Assembly: GCA_938010435.1 (NCBI GenBank) | Contig: CALLUS010000005.1 | Span: 372,001-436,000 of the forward strand | Reading direction: 5' to 3' | DNA length: 64,000 bases | Origin: an uncultured Rhizobiaceae group bacterium | GTDB taxonomy: Bacteria > Pseudomonadota > Alphaproteobacteria > Rhizobiales > Rhizobiaceae | In this document: in pieces, positions 15,197-62,536 of the stretch | How the letters are laid out: every line of letters starts with the position of its first letter | Position numbering within the stretch: position 1 is the stretch's first letter | Made by a program: the position numbers and the translations under genes | The notes under the pieces: generated by a model | Seen by the model: the letters and a program-made list of their open reading frames with translations, nothing else | Databases searched by the model: none | What the model was told of the DNA's origin: nothing

Positions 15197-15281
15197 TGGT
15201 GCGGCTGAAGGGACTCGAACCCCCACATCTCTCGATACCAGAACCTAAATCTGGCGCGTCTACCAGTTCCGCCACAGCCGC
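15197..15281 (-). tRNA. tRNA-Leu (anticodon UAG)
   Basis: Complete cloverleaf on the minus strand: acceptor GCGGCTG / CAGCCGC, anticodon stem CCAGA / TCTGG with loop TTTAGGT (anticodon TAG at 15247-15245), a long variable arm typical of class II tRNAs, T-arm GGGGGTTCGAGTCCC, and CCA encoded. Lies in the gap after ugpC. Confidence 0.96.
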
Positions 15282-38410: not shown

Positions 38411-39118
38411 CTAGCTAAACCTTTGTTTGACCGGATCAAACAATCCAAACGCCAACCAACCAAACAAAAAACCACCCATGTGAGCTTCCCACGCAATCGA
38501 TACATCTGCGCCCATAATCGGCAACACACCTGATCCAAACAGCCAATTGAATGCGAACCATACACCAACAAACATAAGCACTTGGCGGTTTGAAAGCGAC
38601 TGAACCAGTGTCAAAGCAGGCGTTGAACTAACAGAACTCATTGATCGACCGGGTACAAACGCAAAACGAATGGCTGCTCCCATACAAGCAGAGACTGCTC
38701 CTGAAGCACCGATAACAGGAACAATGCTCTGGGAATGAAATATGTAATGAGCAAGCGCACCAGCCACTGCCGCAAAACCAAAAAACAACAAAAATCTGAA
38801 CGGTGGAAAACGACGCGCGACAGCAGAACCAAAGGCTGCAAGCCAAACACAATTGATCGCTAGATGCGTCCAATCACCGTGTAAAAAACTGTGCGTCAAA
38901 GGGCTCCAGAATCGGGCATTTGGAACGGGCAACCTGGACACATCAACAGAATAGGCCAATGGAATAAAAGAAAACATTTCATAGATAGAAATCAAATTCT
39001 CTTCACCAATAACCCACACAACAATCGCATGAATTCCCACCATCACTGCAATCAATAAGACGATAATTGTCGGCATGTTGAAAATAGGAGGTGTCGGTTC
39101 CGGTTCGACCTCATTCAT
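38411..39118 (-). CDS. Rhomboid family intramembrane serine protease
   Basis: About 235 residues with six or seven predicted membrane helices. The catalytic pair is visible as GASGAVSACMGAAIRF (Ser of GASG) and AWEAHMGGFLFGWLAFG (His), plus the HSFLHGDWTHLAINCVWLAAFG loop. The ATG at 39118 (MNEVEPEPTPPIF) is used; a TTG at 39208 would add 30 residues and begin just after the terminator at 39225-39249. Substrate unknown. Confidence 0.9.
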   Translation of the reverse strand: MNEVEPEPTPPIFNMPTIIVLLIAVMVGIHAIVVWVIGEENLISIYEMFSFIPLAYSVDVSRLPVPNARFWSPLTHSFLHGDWTHLAINCVWLAAFGSAVARRFPPFRFLLFFGFAAVAGALAHYIFHSQSIVPVIGASGAVSACMGAAIRFAFVPGRSMSSVSSTPALTLVQSLSNRQVLMFVGVWFAFNWLFGSGVLPIMGADVSIAWEAHMGGFLFGWLAFGLFDPVKQRFS

Positions 39119-39217
39119 AAATTGATCAGATGACACGCGATAGCTCTCTGGAATGGATTGAGCATTCACTACACTACAGCAATTGGAGTGGCGAGATGCA
39201 CAGGGCAATTTCTGCTC

Positions 39218-39400
39218 AAAAAAAAGCCCGATGCTAGAAGCACCGGGCTATCTGGTCGGCCCCACTTCCCCATCCCCTGATGGTTATTGAAGCGCCAAGT
39301 ATAAGTTTTGCAGATCAGCTATGCTGTTAGCAACCTGCAGGTTCGCTGGAGTTTCGGGACTAATCGAACCTCCGTGGAGTTCCCCCGTTAAATGACAGAA
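39218..39400 (-). ncRNA. Candidate structured non-coding RNA (RNA A) upstream of rhomboid
   Basis: A strong intrinsic terminator (39225-39249 plus eight T) points leftward, but no coding gene lies upstream on that strand: the next gene is on plus. On the minus strand the preceding ~150 bases fold into several short hairpins, for example GGAG-UUCG with CGAA-CUCC near 39376-39355, AACC-GGUU near 39347 and CCAUC with GAUGG near 39283-39270. A possible -35 TTGACG lies at about 39448. The 5' end is a guess. It contains GGGGATGGGGAAGTGGGG, complementary to RNA B at 41974-42001. Could instead be an attenuated leader of rhomboid. 6S RNA was considered but not shown. Confidence 0.5.
39225..39249 (-). 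terminator. Intrinsic terminator of RNA A
   Basis: Arms AGCCCGATGC (39225-39234) and GCACCGGGCT (39240-39249) pair with one mismatch around the loop TAGAA; eight A at 39218-39225 give a T8 tail on the minus strand. Confidence 0.85.
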
Positions 39401-39616
39401 TTGCATTTGCCCTGCAATCCTAAGCTCTTGTTAAGGTTAATTTCCGTCAACCTTTTACAAAGTTGTCATTTGCTGTGGTTGAAATTTTTCACTGATAGCC
39501 CCCACCCCATGGAACTGGCACGTTGTCTGCAGTGCTACGGGCAAGAGAAACAATAAGACTCAAAATGTGTCTCAAAATGGGATACGCGAACGGGTCTGGG
39601 CACGGCAGGCAGGAAA

Positions 39617-40318
39617 ATGCGTCAAAACAAAACGAAACAGATGCTTTCATATTGGTTGGAGCTTTTTCACGCGGAGCAAGAGAAAAGCTCTTGTTGCGGA
39701 GAAATTATGTGGCCAGACCGCAGCGATGTACACCCTGCAAGATGTCGCGACATTCTTGGCGACATGTTCATTCTTGAAAGCAAAAAAAATGAACTTGTCT
39801 ACCGGTTGGCGGGAACGAAACTTTGCGGCATGTTCGGCGAAGAACTGAAACAAAAACCATTCAGCACGCCCTACTCTGGCGCAGATCGCCGTTCAGCCGA
39901 TGATTGGGTCAATCGATTGGGTGAAGAAGACTATGTGGTTGTGATCAGTTCATTTGGCCTGACAGACAAAGGTGAGCGCATTAATCTGGAGACCCTGCTT
40001 TTGCCATTGTCCCACAATGGAATTCGCGGAAGCCGCATTCTGGGCATTACAAGCCCGGGCGAATCCCCCTATTGGCTTGGAACAGATCCATTGACCGAAC
40101 AAGTGATCCGCAGCGTGCGCGTTTTGCGCCCTTGGGAAGACGACACTTATCTATCGAACTGGCCGTTCAAAAAACCGAGTTTATCTAGCGACATTGAACG
40201 ACGAATTAATTTGGAAGCCCCTGCTCTTTACGCAAAATCAAACGCAAAAATAACCGAACGACCGGATGCGCGTCGAGTGGCTCACCTGACCGTTTTACAA
40301 GGTGGACGTGAGAACTAA
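39617..40318 (+). CDS. PAS-domain protein (PAS_5/DUF1457-like)
   Basis: 233-residue cytoplasmic protein resembling the rhizobial PAS_5 group: LSYWLELFHAEQ and WPDRSDVHPARCRDILGDMFILESKKNELVYRLAGTKLCGMFGEELK form the sensor core, and LLLPLSHNGIRGSRILGITSP the later strands. No output domain. It stands just before a PilZ gene on the same strand (127-base gap), an arrangement seen in related genomes. The start at 39617 could be 39641 (MLSYWLELFH). Ligand and partner unknown. Confidence 0.78.
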   Translation: MRQNKTKQMLSYWLELFHAEQEKSSCCGEIMWPDRSDVHPARCRDILGDMFILESKKNELVYRLAGTKLCGMFGEELKQKPFSTPYSGADRRSADDWVNRLGEEDYVVVISSFGLTDKGERINLETLLLPLSHNGIRGSRILGITSPGESPYWLGTDPLTEQVIRSVRVLRPWEDDTYLSNWPFKKPSLSSDIERRINLEAPALYAKSNAKITERPDARRVAHLTVLQGGREN

Positions 40319-40445
40319 GGGCCCGACACCACTGCTGCGACGAAATATACAGTTCGCAAAAGTAAATACTGACACTTCATTAACCATAGTCATCCTATAG
40401 TTTGCTATCGAGGACATTTTTTCCGCCCACAAAACGCAAGTAGAT

Positions 40446-41051
40446 TTGACTTTGGATACCATTCATCAACCATCATCAGGCCCGGAAAGACGTGCTTACG
40501 AACGCGCTGCGGTTTCTGTGTTCGGTAGATGCTTGTTGCCAAACAAACTAGAAATCCCCTGCCAAGCCATCAATATGTCTCCTGGTGATGTTGGTTTGGT
40601 TGCCGCACACCTGCCATTGGTTAAAGACCATGTGATCGTCTATTTAGACCACATAGGTCGCGTAGAAGGCAAAGTGATACGTCTCTATGACGGCGGGTTT
40701 GCAATGACAATTGAGTGCACTCCACGCAAACGCGAGAAGCTCGCAGCCAGTATTGAATGGGTAAAAGTGCACAGCGAATTTGGCGATCAAGAACACCGAC
40801 GTCACGAGCGCATAGAACCCGCAAATAAGAATACGGAAATCAAACTCGACGACGGGCGCTGTTACCCTGTTGAAATCATTGATATTTCCATTTCCGGCGC
40901 AGCACTTGAAACCGATGTTAAACCAGCGCTTGGTTCAACCGTAACTTTCTCCGGCTTACATGGTAAGGTCGTTCGTCACTTTGCAGAAGGCATTGCAGTC
41001 GAATTCGATATCTTGGCTGAACACGGATTAATCAAAGGACGGTTCGGCTAA
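40446..41051 (+). CDS. Tandem PilZ-domain protein
   Basis: 201 residues with two PilZ domains. The first (RRAYERAAV, then NMSPGD where D/N-x-S-x-x-G is expected) is degenerate at the second motif. The second is intact: RRHERIEP gives R-x-x-x-R and DISISGAA gives D-x-S-x-x-G, so c-di-GMP binding is likely there. Starts at a TTG (no in-frame ATG nearby). Probably a diguanylate-responsive adaptor acting with the PAS gene upstream; target unknown. Confidence 0.85.
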   Translation: MTLDTIHQPSSGPERRAYERAAVSVFGRCLLPNKLEIPCQAINMSPGDVGLVAAHLPLVKDHVIVYLDHIGRVEGKVIRLYDGGFAMTIECTPRKREKLAASIEWVKVHSEFGDQEHRRHERIEPANKNTEIKLDDGRCYPVEIIDISISGAALETDVKPALGSTVTFSGLHGKVVRHFAEGIAVEFDILAEHGLIKGRFG

Positions 41052-41336
41052 CACCTGCACAACATTATGTGACTACTTTCGCCGTCTCTTTCCTGCCATC
41101 TGAATGGCATTGAACCCGTACGTTTTTCGTGCCGTCTGCCTCTTCTCACTTGTTAAAGTCTAATCGCCTGTTTGAGCTAGACCTCACATGCTCCAGACAT
41201 GATGGTTAATCAGGTGCGACCAATCGATAAAATTTGAATCAAAATTTGCAAAAATGCATTTAAAAACTGAACGTTAAATCCAACTGCCTGTAAAATCGTG
41301 TCTGGCAATTTGGCTCCCATGGACGGGAGACCAAAA

Positions 41337-41936
41337 ATGAAACTAATCAAAAACACGATCATGGCAGCGACCATGATACTAACTGGGGCGCTATCAGCAT
41401 CAAACGCTTATGCAACCACAAACCACATGAAGACCACAGGCTTGACATCACAGCCTATCGGTCATGCAATGTTTTGTGAACAATATGCGCAAGAATGCAA
41501 AATTCGCAACAAATCACAGAAGGCTCCAAAGCTGACTCGCAAGGGTTGGCAAGATCTTCTGGACATCAATCATTTCGCCAACACCAATGTAGCGCCGGTC
41601 ACAGACCAAGATGCGTATGGTGTTGAAGAGCATTGGACATACCCAAAGAGCTACGGCGATTGCGAAGACTATGTATTGCTGAAACGCTATATGTTGCTGC
41701 AACGCGGTTGGCCTGCGTCCAGCCTGTTGATCACAGTTGTGAAACAGCCAAATGGCGAAGGTCATGCAGTTCTAACTGTGCGCACCGATCGTGCGGATTA
41801 CGTGCTCGACAATCTTCAACCACTCGTCAAACAGTGGGATGAAACACCCTATCAATATCTCAAGCGCCAATCGACTGCTCATACTGGCCGCTGGAGCAAA
41901 ATCAAAGACGGTCGCGCAATGGTGGCCAACTACTAA
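41337..41936 (+). CDS. Bacterial transglutaminase-like cysteine proteinase (BTLCP)
   Basis: 199-residue exported protein, signal peptide ending near SNAYA. The Cys-His-Asp triad of the BTLCP/DUF920 family is visible: YGDCEDYVLLKRYMLLQRGW (Cys), GEGHAVLTVRTD (His) and YVLDNLQP (Asp). LapG-type relatives cleave adhesins under c-di-GMP control, but no LapD or adhesin gene is in the window. ATG at 41337 with GGGAG 8 bases upstream. RNA B follows its stop codon directly. Confidence 0.88.
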   Translation: MKLIKNTIMAATMILTGALSASNAYATTNHMKTTGLTSQPIGHAMFCEQYAQECKIRNKSQKAPKLTRKGWQDLLDINHFANTNVAPVTDQDAYGVEEHWTYPKSYGDCEDYVLLKRYMLLQRGWPASSLLITVVKQPNGEGHAVLTVRTDRADYVLDNLQPLVKQWDETPYQYLKRQSTAHTGRWSKIKDGRAMVANY

Positions 41937-41940
41937 GAAT

Positions 41941-42055
41941 TCGACGGATACCTTCCGACGTATCAGAATTGACCTGGTCGCGTCCCCACTTCCCCGTCCC
42001 CAACGGCCAGGTCATAGGGGTCAGTTTGCTTCCGCAAGCTGACCCCGTTTTTTTT
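41941..42055 (+). ncRNA. Candidate small RNA (RNA B) with C-rich loop, 3' of the BTLCP gene
   Basis: Three hairpins follow the BTLCP stop: GATAC/GTATC (41947-41951 with 41960-41964), an 11-bp stem (41970-41980 with 42004-42014) presenting a 23-base loop that contains CCCCACTTCCCCGTCCCC, and a 13-bp terminator stem followed by eight T. An exposed C-rich loop plus U-tailed terminator is the layout of Hfq-type small RNAs that pair with G-rich ribosome sites. It could be a 3'UTR-derived RNA or have its own promoter; none was identified. No family recognised. Confidence 0.6.
42017..42055 (+). terminator. Intrinsic terminator of RNA B / BTLCP gene
   Basis: 13-bp stem with one G-T pair (42017-42029 with 42034-42046), TTCC loop, then G and eight T. 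Only the plus direction has the T-run. The last T bases overlap the stop codon of the convergent carbonic anhydrase gene. Confidence 0.93.
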
Positions 42056-57264: not shown

Positions 57265-57341
57265 TGGTGATCCCTAATGGATTCGAACCATTGACCTACT
57301 GCTTAGAAGGCAGTTGCTCTATCCAGCTGAGCTAAGGGACC
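57265..57341 (-). tRNA. tRNA-Arg (anticodon UCU)
   Basis: Cloverleaf on minus: acceptor GGTCCCT with AGGGATC (one G-T pair), anticodon stem ACTGC/GCAGT with loop CTTCTAA giving TCT, T-arm ATGGTTCGAATCCAT, and CCA encoded. 68 bases downstream of a second tRNA-Arg. Confidence 0.96.
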
Positions 57342-57409
57342 ACTGAGTCTGTCCATAGCGAGTCCAAATCAGTTTGAAAATCGCTTATTCCATTGATGCG
57401 GGATTTTTT

Positions 57410-57486
57410 TGGTGACCCCGAGTGGATTCGAACCACCGACCTACAGATTAGGAATCTGTTGCTCTATCCTGCTGAGCTACGGGGCC
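57410..57486 (-). tRNA. tRNA-Arg (anticodon CCU)
   Basis: Cloverleaf on minus: acceptor GGCCCCG with CGGGGTC (one G-T pair), anticodon stem ACAGA/TCTGT with loop TTCCTAA giving CCT, T-arm GTGGTTCGAATCCAC, CCA encoded. Reads the rare AGG codon and forms a pair with tRNA-Arg(UCU). Confidence 0.96.
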
Positions 57487-57772
57487 AACTTGGTTTGAAT
57501 AACCAATATTAAGGGGCGATGAAATAGAGTTCCAAGTTTAAGTTGCATTTCGTTTACGTAGGCAGTCAAAATTTGCATGAAAGTTGACATCCTATGCCTC
57601 AGTTCAGGAAATCCCAGCGCCCATTTTAAACAAACCAAAAGGGGACGTTGTGCCTGCATACCAAGTTCCAAAAAAATATCACCGCAAATCAAAATTTAGA
57701 GCGAAATTCCCGTCTACCAATCTAAAGAACTAATTTAGATTGAACACCAACAGTTTGATCAATTCGCGACGA

Positions 57773-58078
57773 TTAATGCGTCCAGGGAACCTTACGGTCG
57801 AAATTAAAATTTTCTGAATAGGTCATCGGACGGCGTTTGGGTGCTTTTGGTTCTCTCACGCGATATTGAATATCGTTTCGTTCAGCGTATTCAACAGCTT
57901 CTTCTCTTGTTTTAAACTCAAGTCTTATCTGTGAAAGCATGTCCGAAGAAGACGTATAGCCCATCAAAGGTTCAATCGATTTTGCTGATTGAGGTTCATG
58001 TTCCAGCACCCACAACTGTGTCCGACCTTTACCAGACTGCATTGCAGTTTTAGCAGGTTGGTAGATGCGTGCGACCAT
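57773..58078 (-). CDS. NDUFS4-like accessory subunit of respiratory complex I
   Basis: 101-residue ETC complex I subunit family protein, as found in alphaproteobacteria and mitochondria. MVARIYQPAKTAMQSGKGRTQLWVLEHEP at the start and the C-terminal KRRPMTYSENFNFDRKVPWTH are hallmark blocks. The ATG at 58078 is chosen for this start; longer frames run into the tRNA. Sits directly after tRNA-Pro on the same strand. Confidence 0.93.
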   Translation of the reverse strand: MVARIYQPAKTAMQSGKGRTQLWVLEHEPQSAKSIEPLMGYTSSSDMLSQIRLEFKTREEAVEYAERNDIQYRVREPKAPKRRPMTYSENFNFDRKVPWTH

Positions 58079-58146
58079 GTTGAGATCCTGTGCCTTTATG
58101 AAGTGTCTGCTCACCTTATGCAGATACCGCATTTTCAATCAAGACG

Positions 58147-58223
58147 TGGTCGGAGCGAGAGGATTCGAACCTCCGACCCCCTGGTCCCAAACCAGGTGCG
58201 CTACCAGGCTGCGCCACGCTCCG
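58147..58223 (-). tRNA. tRNA-Pro (anticodon UGG)
   Basis: Cloverleaf on minus: acceptor CGGAGCG/CGCTCCG, anticodon stem CCTGG/CCAGG with loop TTTGGGA giving TGG, T-arm GGAGGTTCGAATCCTC, CCA encoded. Between the DUF192 and NDUFS4-like genes. Confidence 0.97.
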
Positions 58224-62461: not shown

Positions 62462-62536
62462 GGTCCCTTCGTCTATCGGTTAGGACGCCAGGTTTTCAAC
62501 CTGGAAAGAGGGGTTCGATTCCCCTAGGGACTACCA
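62462..62536 (+). tRNA. tRNA-Glu (anticodon UUC)
   Basis: Cloverleaf on plus: acceptor GGTCCCT with AGGGACT, D-arm GTCTATCGGTTAGGAC, anticodon stem CCAGG/CCTGG with loop TTTTCAA giving TTC, T-arm AGGGGTTCGATTCCCCT, CCA encoded. Confidence 0.96.

Follow-up and report, generated by a model that had tools for sequence, protein, structure and literature searches.

The locus and its two predicted RNAs

The window analyzed here is a 64,000-nucleotide stretch of DNA from an uncultured Rhizobiaceae bacterium (assembly GCA_938010435.1, contig CALLUS010000005.1, positions 372,001 to 436,000 of the forward strand), in which two predicted RNAs, RNA A and RNA B, are encoded on opposite strands around three protein genes and probably bind each other, with one controlling the other. 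Along the plus strand, the order is that of a rhomboid protein (minus strand, 38411–39208; Pfam PF01694), RNA A (minus strand), a mopJ-like PAS_5 protein (plus strand, 39617–40318; PF07310), a PilZ-domain protein (plus strand, 40446–41051; PF07238), a hvyA-like BTLCP transglutaminase-like cysteine peptidase (plus strand, 41298–41936; PF06035), RNA B (plus strand), and a hexapeptide-repeat protein (minus strand), which we label gCA. Here, the labels mopJ-like and hvyA-like were given by domain, and the orthologue names follow the literature, with SMc01000 being the Sinorhizobium meliloti orthologue of MopJ (PMC4432633) and SMc00998 that of HvyA (PMC4241560).

RNA B (41965–42055, plus strand) stands in the position of the 3′ untranslated region (UTR) of the hvyA-like gene, about 33 bases past it, and combines a C-rich-loop hairpin with a terminator. 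The fold is a stable one (z-score of −7.7), in which an 11-pair stem (41970–41980 with 42004–42014) closes a 23-base C-rich loop (41981–42003), with a 13-pair terminator (42017–42046) and T-run behind it. Comparison with relatives supports this structure, as the stems show change on both sides in 9 of 22 pairs, with 99.2% of cells paired. At one locus from another family (L272, genome G039), two RNA-B-like hairpins stand in tandem.

RNA A is predicted on the minus strand at 39217–39400, with its 3′ end at the T-run past a terminator hairpin (39225–39249) and a putative 5′ end at about 39400. Just ahead of the terminator lies the G-rich stretch (39252–39277, minus strand) that is complementary to RNA B. 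For RNA A at full length, RNAalifold recovered the terminator together with some short pairs, with two-sided change in 3 of 22 pairs. For terminators, a scan by itself is weak evidence, since it found 5 terminator-like sites versus 4.1 in shuffles; those of both RNA A and RNA B are conserved in relatives. Upstream of the G-rich part (39330–39380, minus strand), ACTCCACGG and CTCCAGC are common to the RNA A of several members of the genus, and as CUCC is complementary to the Shine-Dalgarno sequence, RNA A may have a second function.

In the window, the rhomboid gene follows the RNA A terminator in the same direction, as would suit a 5′ leader of that gene, with the terminator serving as an attenuator whose read-through is tuned by RNA B binding next to it. 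According to the folds, though, the paired stretch stops ahead of the terminator stem, so that pairing would leave the stem intact, and we consider such a leader very unlikely.

Between RNA A and the mopJ-like gene is a CtrA-box-like TTAA-N7-TTAG (39420–39434, minus strand). With at most one mismatch, TTAA-N7-TTAA is found in the A/mopJ interval of 24 of 37 genomes (shuffled mean of 2.8), being exact in 1 of the 37; as spacing controls, N6 gave 12, N8 gave 10, and the remaining spacings 1–4. This CtrA-type box may serve mopJ, RNA A, or both.

Complementarity of RNA A and RNA B

The plus strand reads CTGGTCGGCCCCACTTCCCCATCCCC at 39252–39277 and CTGGTCGCGTCCCCACTTCCCCGTCCCC at 41974–42001, the latter stretch comprising the top of the 5′ stem arm and the C-rich loop of RNA B. 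Both the coordinates and the 24 identical bases with a 2-base gap (41981–41982) are exactly as given in the initial annotation, which counted one substitution where we find two. A39272/G41996 makes a U-G pair between the RNAs, in agreement with the G-U pair it had proposed, and G39259/T41983 makes a C-U mismatch. It had also assigned the complementary sequence to the loop of RNA B, and this holds for the C-rich part, with CTGGTCG falling in the 5′ stem arm instead. Its statement that no further copy was seen in the window extends to the genome as a whole, for the core 12-mer CCCCACTTCCCC has exactly two sites in 3.57 Mb, namely these two stretches, and a dispersed repeat with many genomic copies is thereby rejected. 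With at most one mismatch, the 12-mer has 11 matches in the genome, the same number as a reversed control pattern.

Between the RNA A 3′ domain and the RNA B hairpin, the duplex energy is −68.5 kcal/mol, whereas 500 dinucleotide shuffles of RNA A averaged −32.3 and none attained this value. Among nine genomes of the genus, the corresponding count was 0/500 in eight and 3/500 in G001. Thus, RNA A is complementary over an extended length to the loop through which RNA B would pair, as would be expected for a sponge and the RNA that it binds.

Distribution in relatives

In a BLAST search of 14 genomes of the genus (G000–G013), B-like DNA was found in 10 and A-like DNA in 11, and further reading added RNA A in G011 and diverged forms of both RNAs in G003. 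Two genomes (G004, G009) have RNA A so close to a contig end that the place of RNA B falls outside the sequence, while G005 has a hvyA-like gene with a plain terminator and neither mopJ nor pilZ within the 7.3 kb read. Genome G014, which measures 0.9 Mb at a listed completeness of 98% while its relatives in the genus span 2.4–4.8 Mb, had no match to either RNA or to the hvyA-like protein.

Beyond the genus, our model of RNA B (R1) matched 35 of 61 family genomes, each from a different genus, and 62 of 150 order genomes. At the class level, it matched 4 of 190 genomes, these being the window's own, one more order member, and two weak ones outside the order (2/188), and an origin clearly wider than the order was rejected on this basis. 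A hvyA-like gene precedes RNA B in 43 of 44 loci (the exception is G082); when 35 loci were retrieved from the 62 order-level genomes, 33 had such a gene within 300 bases upstream. The hvyA-like stop codon starts 7–223 bases ahead of the RNA B match. The arrangement mopJ-pilZ-hvyA-B, with RNA A divergent from mopJ, recurs in many genera and extends to some other families within the order. Most of the named loci, which were retrieved with a BTLCP alignment, belong to Rhizobiaceae in the wide sense.

Some loci appear to lack both elements. Three Agrobacterium loci (L145, L150, L154) have neither the G stretch of RNA A nor a C-rich hairpin past the hvyA-like gene. By eye, three Brucella loci (L149, L170, L200) have a terminator at the place of RNA A but lack the G stretch, and a C-rich hairpin is missing behind hvyA, even if a permissive script did count one in L149; Allorhizobium L186 and Ensifer L199 are in the same state. 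Joint absence in these four genera agrees with joint loss, with the cases being few. Rhodobium L194 has RNA B and no G motif at the place of RNA A.

Several features of the distribution weigh against a conserved pair. RNA B was not found by model R1 in 26 of the 61 family genomes, and the RNA A model (R2), which was built from sequences of the genus plus one other, matched just 9 of the 61. Moreover, in Bosea L173 and Prosthecomicrobium L184 the place of RNA A is taken by a G-rich stretch with GGGCGTGAC, but the hvyA-like gene is not followed by a C-rich hairpin.

Matching changes in the two RNAs

To avoid circularity, RNA A was defined in relatives by its terminator and not by its match to RNA B, and was taken by place as the stretch ahead of the best-scoring minus-strand terminator upstream of the PAS gene. 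Such a G-rich stretch occurs at this place in other genera despite otherwise different sequence. The 5′ shoulder of RNA B and the end of the RNA A stretch read GGTCGAGTCCCC/GGGGGCTCGACC in several genera, GGTCGATCCCC/GGGGATCGACC in L134, GGTTGTGTCCCC/AGGGACATAACC in G069, GGTCGTGTCCCC/GGGGACATGACC in L179, GGTCGGGTCCCC/TGGGACCCGGCA in G088, GGTCGAGCCCCC/GGGGGCTCGATT in G090, and GGTCACGTCCCC/GGGGATGTGACC in G095, which belongs to another family. Here, we noticed that the base after GGTYG in RNA B can be A (many), C (G018), G (G088), or T (G069, L179), each with its Watson-Crick partner in RNA A; in other cases a C at this position is left unpaired, being mismatched in G081 and G083 and facing a gap in the genus of the window. 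In Shinella, the match is found in the loop center (RNA A GGGGATTGGGG, RNA B CCCCAATCCCC), as it is in the window's genus.

If G-U counts as a pair and the best placement is used, the shoulder pairs with at most one mismatch in 26 of 53 rows, 13 of which have none. From 27 named loci that have both a PAS gene and an R1 match, 19 were taken into this set, and L138 was then lost because it had no terminator; L146, L182, L185, L187, L188, L196, and L198 were omitted after weak terminators or a poor RNA B had been seen, as was L132 for being the same genome as G015.

A PAS match was present in 37 of 44 loci, and these 37 genomes were used, unfiltered, for the energy and cofold tests. Own partners gave −45.7 versus −41.4 kcal/mol for others (double-centered permutation, 0/20000), and own cofolds −16.6 versus −11.7 for swapped ones (0/20000). 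At the level of sequence types, family and named rows comprise 18 RNA B types, with 1/20000 centered and 2/20000 raw permutations reaching the observed value. Adding the order loci, filtered, gave 20 types and 0/20000, and again 0/20000 without the window's genus, as compared to 8139/20000 for a parallel-orientation control. This filtering was selective, since it dropped 21 of the 35 order loci (no PAS gene, no terminator, or a terminator below the set score), and we therefore repeated the test on all rows with a PAS gene and any terminator. Outside this unfiltered test lay 22 loci with no PAS gene or terminator, 8 rows with no GGT in RNA B, and G100 with no tree protein. For its 24 RNA B types, own partners were matched by permuted ones in 0/20000 (parallel-orientation control, 8945/20000).

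As permutation ignores relatedness, independent pairs from a PilZ plus BTLCP tree were also tested. Filtered, 17 pairs gave 10 for, 1 against, and 6 ties (p = 0.006); unfiltered, 21 pairs gave 12 for, 3 against, and 6 ties (sign p = 0.018, Wilcoxon p = 0.0015). The result holds in the unfiltered repeat, though with three pairs against instead of one. Some loci may share one genome; the type test collapses identical rows into one, and the tree test does not. A crude pattern of RNA B hairpin versus G motif in 47 named loci gave counts of 13, 11, 3, and 20 (p = 0.005); it misses clear cases such as L133 and L134, and we give it little weight.

There are also observations that run counter to such matching. 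In 23 of 43 loci, the own RNA A outscores every other site on its strand within up to 6 kb ahead of RNA B; the other 20 have a better-scoring site in the 6 kb, or the place of RNA A lies outside the stretch. Little A-B match is seen in G045, G075, and L193, and the commonest type of the genus, GGTCGCGTCC, ranks its own RNA A 7th of 20. Within the genus, own-versus-swapped energies tell little because RNA B hardly varies there.

Overall, where RNA B has changed, RNA A has tended to change too, and complementarity appears to be kept, with exceptions, through matching change. The check suggested by the initial annotation, whether the two copies co-occur and covary in relatives, shows a fixed order and stretches that tend to change together, and both lend support to its interacting pair of RNAs. 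Pairs of a small RNA (sRNA) and an RNA antagonist dedicated to it usually come to light through experiments in a single species. Here, the match of two separately encoded RNAs can be traced by paired changes over many genera, which we regard as strong sequence evidence for an RNA-RNA interaction in trans.

RNA pairing versus a DNA repeat

The two copies lie 2.7 kb apart in the same DNA orientation, and could thus be a direct repeat whose copies are homogenized by gene conversion or conserved through a single DNA-binding protein, with the RNAs unpaired; concerted evolution would also raise the likeness of own partners. The nature of the differences argues otherwise. In the 20 distinct pairs that differ at no more than two positions, departures of RNA A from the perfect complement of RNA B comprise 17 that keep a G-U pair, 2 pair-breaking transitions, and 10 transversions (p = 3e-4), some of the 17 repeating one shared change. 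Looser limits gave kept versus broken ratios of 27:7 (19 transversions) and 32:9 (32 transversions), and whole local alignments 37:27 (108 transversions), with an expected share of 0.36 (p = 3e-4). Since a mere DNA repeat would not give a bias toward G-U pairs between the transcribed strands, it was rejected as the sole cause. Moreover, each copy adjoins its own terminator, on opposite strands. Unpaired RNAs from a maintained repeat are accordingly an extremely improbable explanation.

Comparison with known RNAs

In the window and 13 named loci, neither RNA reached the gathering score of any Rfam 15 family, and the low-score lists for the window RNAs held nothing convincing; we thus have two RNA families with no Rfam 15 match. 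Searches of an open-access full-text library turned up neither of them, and subscription papers, supplements, or RNA sequencing tables may list either one.

The closest analogue is CrfA of Caulobacter crescentus, a sponge of SisA-D, which are alphaR8 sRNAs (PMC12559287). In that alphaproteobacterium too, a G/A-rich stem-loop masks the anti-Shine-Dalgarno stretch of trans-encoded sRNAs. It is not the same RNA or place, however, as SisA-D have the core UUUCCUCCCU and sisA lies downstream of an FGase gene, whereas RNA A and RNA B flank mopJ-pilZ-hvyA; moreover, the CrfA/SisA-D interaction was shown in cells, and that of RNA A and RNA B is inferred from covariation. Membership of RNA B in the alphaR8 family, whose UUUCCUCCCU-bearing sRNAs usually adjoin an FGase gene (PMC12559287), was rejected, because this core is not in the window RNA B and RNA B follows hvyA-like genes.

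PmaR of Agrobacterium tumefaciens likewise has a stem and an accessible C-rich loop, which in PmaR binds several mRNAs, and is reported only from Agrobacterium and a close Rhizobium strain (PMC6234868). The comparison is one of descriptions only, and in the three Agrobacterium loci L145, L150, and L154 such a hairpin is absent downstream of the hvyA-like gene. The best Rfam resemblance of RNA B is to BjrC68 (RF02353; E-value of 0.016), also a hairpin followed by a GC-rich terminator. Membership was rejected, with RNA B scoring 17.9 bits against a gathering score of 39 and the 13 named loci giving no such match. In addition, the sequence read around the two BjrC68 members above the cut-off (L211, L212) contains no hvyA-like gene, and in G108 and G185 the BjrC68 and R1 matches are at different places. 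GspR and SmelC776 of Sinorhizobium are rhizobial small RNAs that can pair and have a cell-cycle link, but these are encoded in cis, opposite each other at one place, and are described from Sinorhizobium/Ensifer species (PMC5928217, PMC3927594). Other rhizobial RNAs, including EcpR1 (PMC4414408), GspR (PMC5928217), and those of PMC4842269 and PMC3927594, come from other places.

Proposed mechanism and direction of control

From sequence, the pairing of RNA A and RNA B is well supported: both are conserved, terminated, and in the same gene order, and their complementarity tends to be kept by matching changes. The direction of control is inferred, as RNA A may be a sponge of RNA B or may act on the hvyA-like mRNA through the RNA B hairpin. 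With a probability of roughly 60%, we favor pairing in trans between RNA B as a riboregulator from the hvyA 3′ end and RNA A as its antagonist, in the manner of CrfA as a sponge of SisA-D. The 3′ end of the hvyA-like transcript would be the source of RNA B, whose C-rich, Shine-Dalgarno-complementary loop would act on several mRNAs. RNA A, divergent from the mopJ-like gene beside a CtrA-type box, would antagonize it by pairing its G-rich stretch, ahead of the terminator, with the C-rich loop and 5′ shoulder of RNA B, thereby masking the loop or triggering RNA B decay.

Within the genus, the RNA B loop is more constant than the G-rich stretch of RNA A, and this favors RNA B as the effector. Similarly, the Rhodobium RNA B with no G motif, together with RNA A terminators with no G stretch, fits an RNA B with further partners. 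CCTCC is present in 25 of 69 RNA B rows, and the loop could pair with Shine-Dalgarno-like G-runs. Against these, a search for near copies of the complementary 12-mer gave nine, none of them (0/9) within 60 bases of an open reading frame start, for which reason mRNA targets of RNA B are hypothetical. Likewise, RNA B is often so near hvyA that it may mainly be an mRNA 3′ end.

This proximity equally suits a reversed arrangement, in which RNA A is the regulator and the RNA B hairpin its target, with RNA A binding the hvyA-like mRNA 3′ UTR to set stability or translation and RNA B being no free regulator. The short space after the hvyA-like stop codon often leaves no room for a promoter of RNA B's own, and RNA A adjoins the CtrA-type box. 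Furthermore, an unidentified factor that CtrA and SciP control promotes the translation of hvyA in Caulobacter (PMC4241560). That factor may be unrelated, however; R1 matches just 2/188 class genomes outside the order, both weakly. In addition, the RNA B loop is more constant than a single partner would require, and Rhodobium L194 has RNA B with no G motif at the place of RNA A. We thus consider RNA A as the regulator to be somewhat unlikely, and the combined pattern fits RNA A as the antagonist, perhaps among other tasks, of RNA B as a C-rich-loop regulator.

More speculatively, the two could form an old RNA switch across much of Hyphomicrobiales, in which a CtrA-dependent RNA A and a hvyA-borne RNA B titrate each other around mopJ-pilZ-hvyA, with the cell-cycle phase setting HvyA output or RNA B activity. 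Such a switch, which we think improbable, would if true be the counterpart of the CtrA/SciP-controlled factor promoting hvyA translation in Caulobacter. The pair suggests a post-transcriptional layer, amenable to testing, around genes whose counterparts in Caulobacter, MopJ and HvyA, have roles in the cell cycle and capsulation. Elsewhere in the window, the sole Rfam matches at gathering level are five transfer RNA genes (15200–15281, 57268–58223, and 62462–62533).

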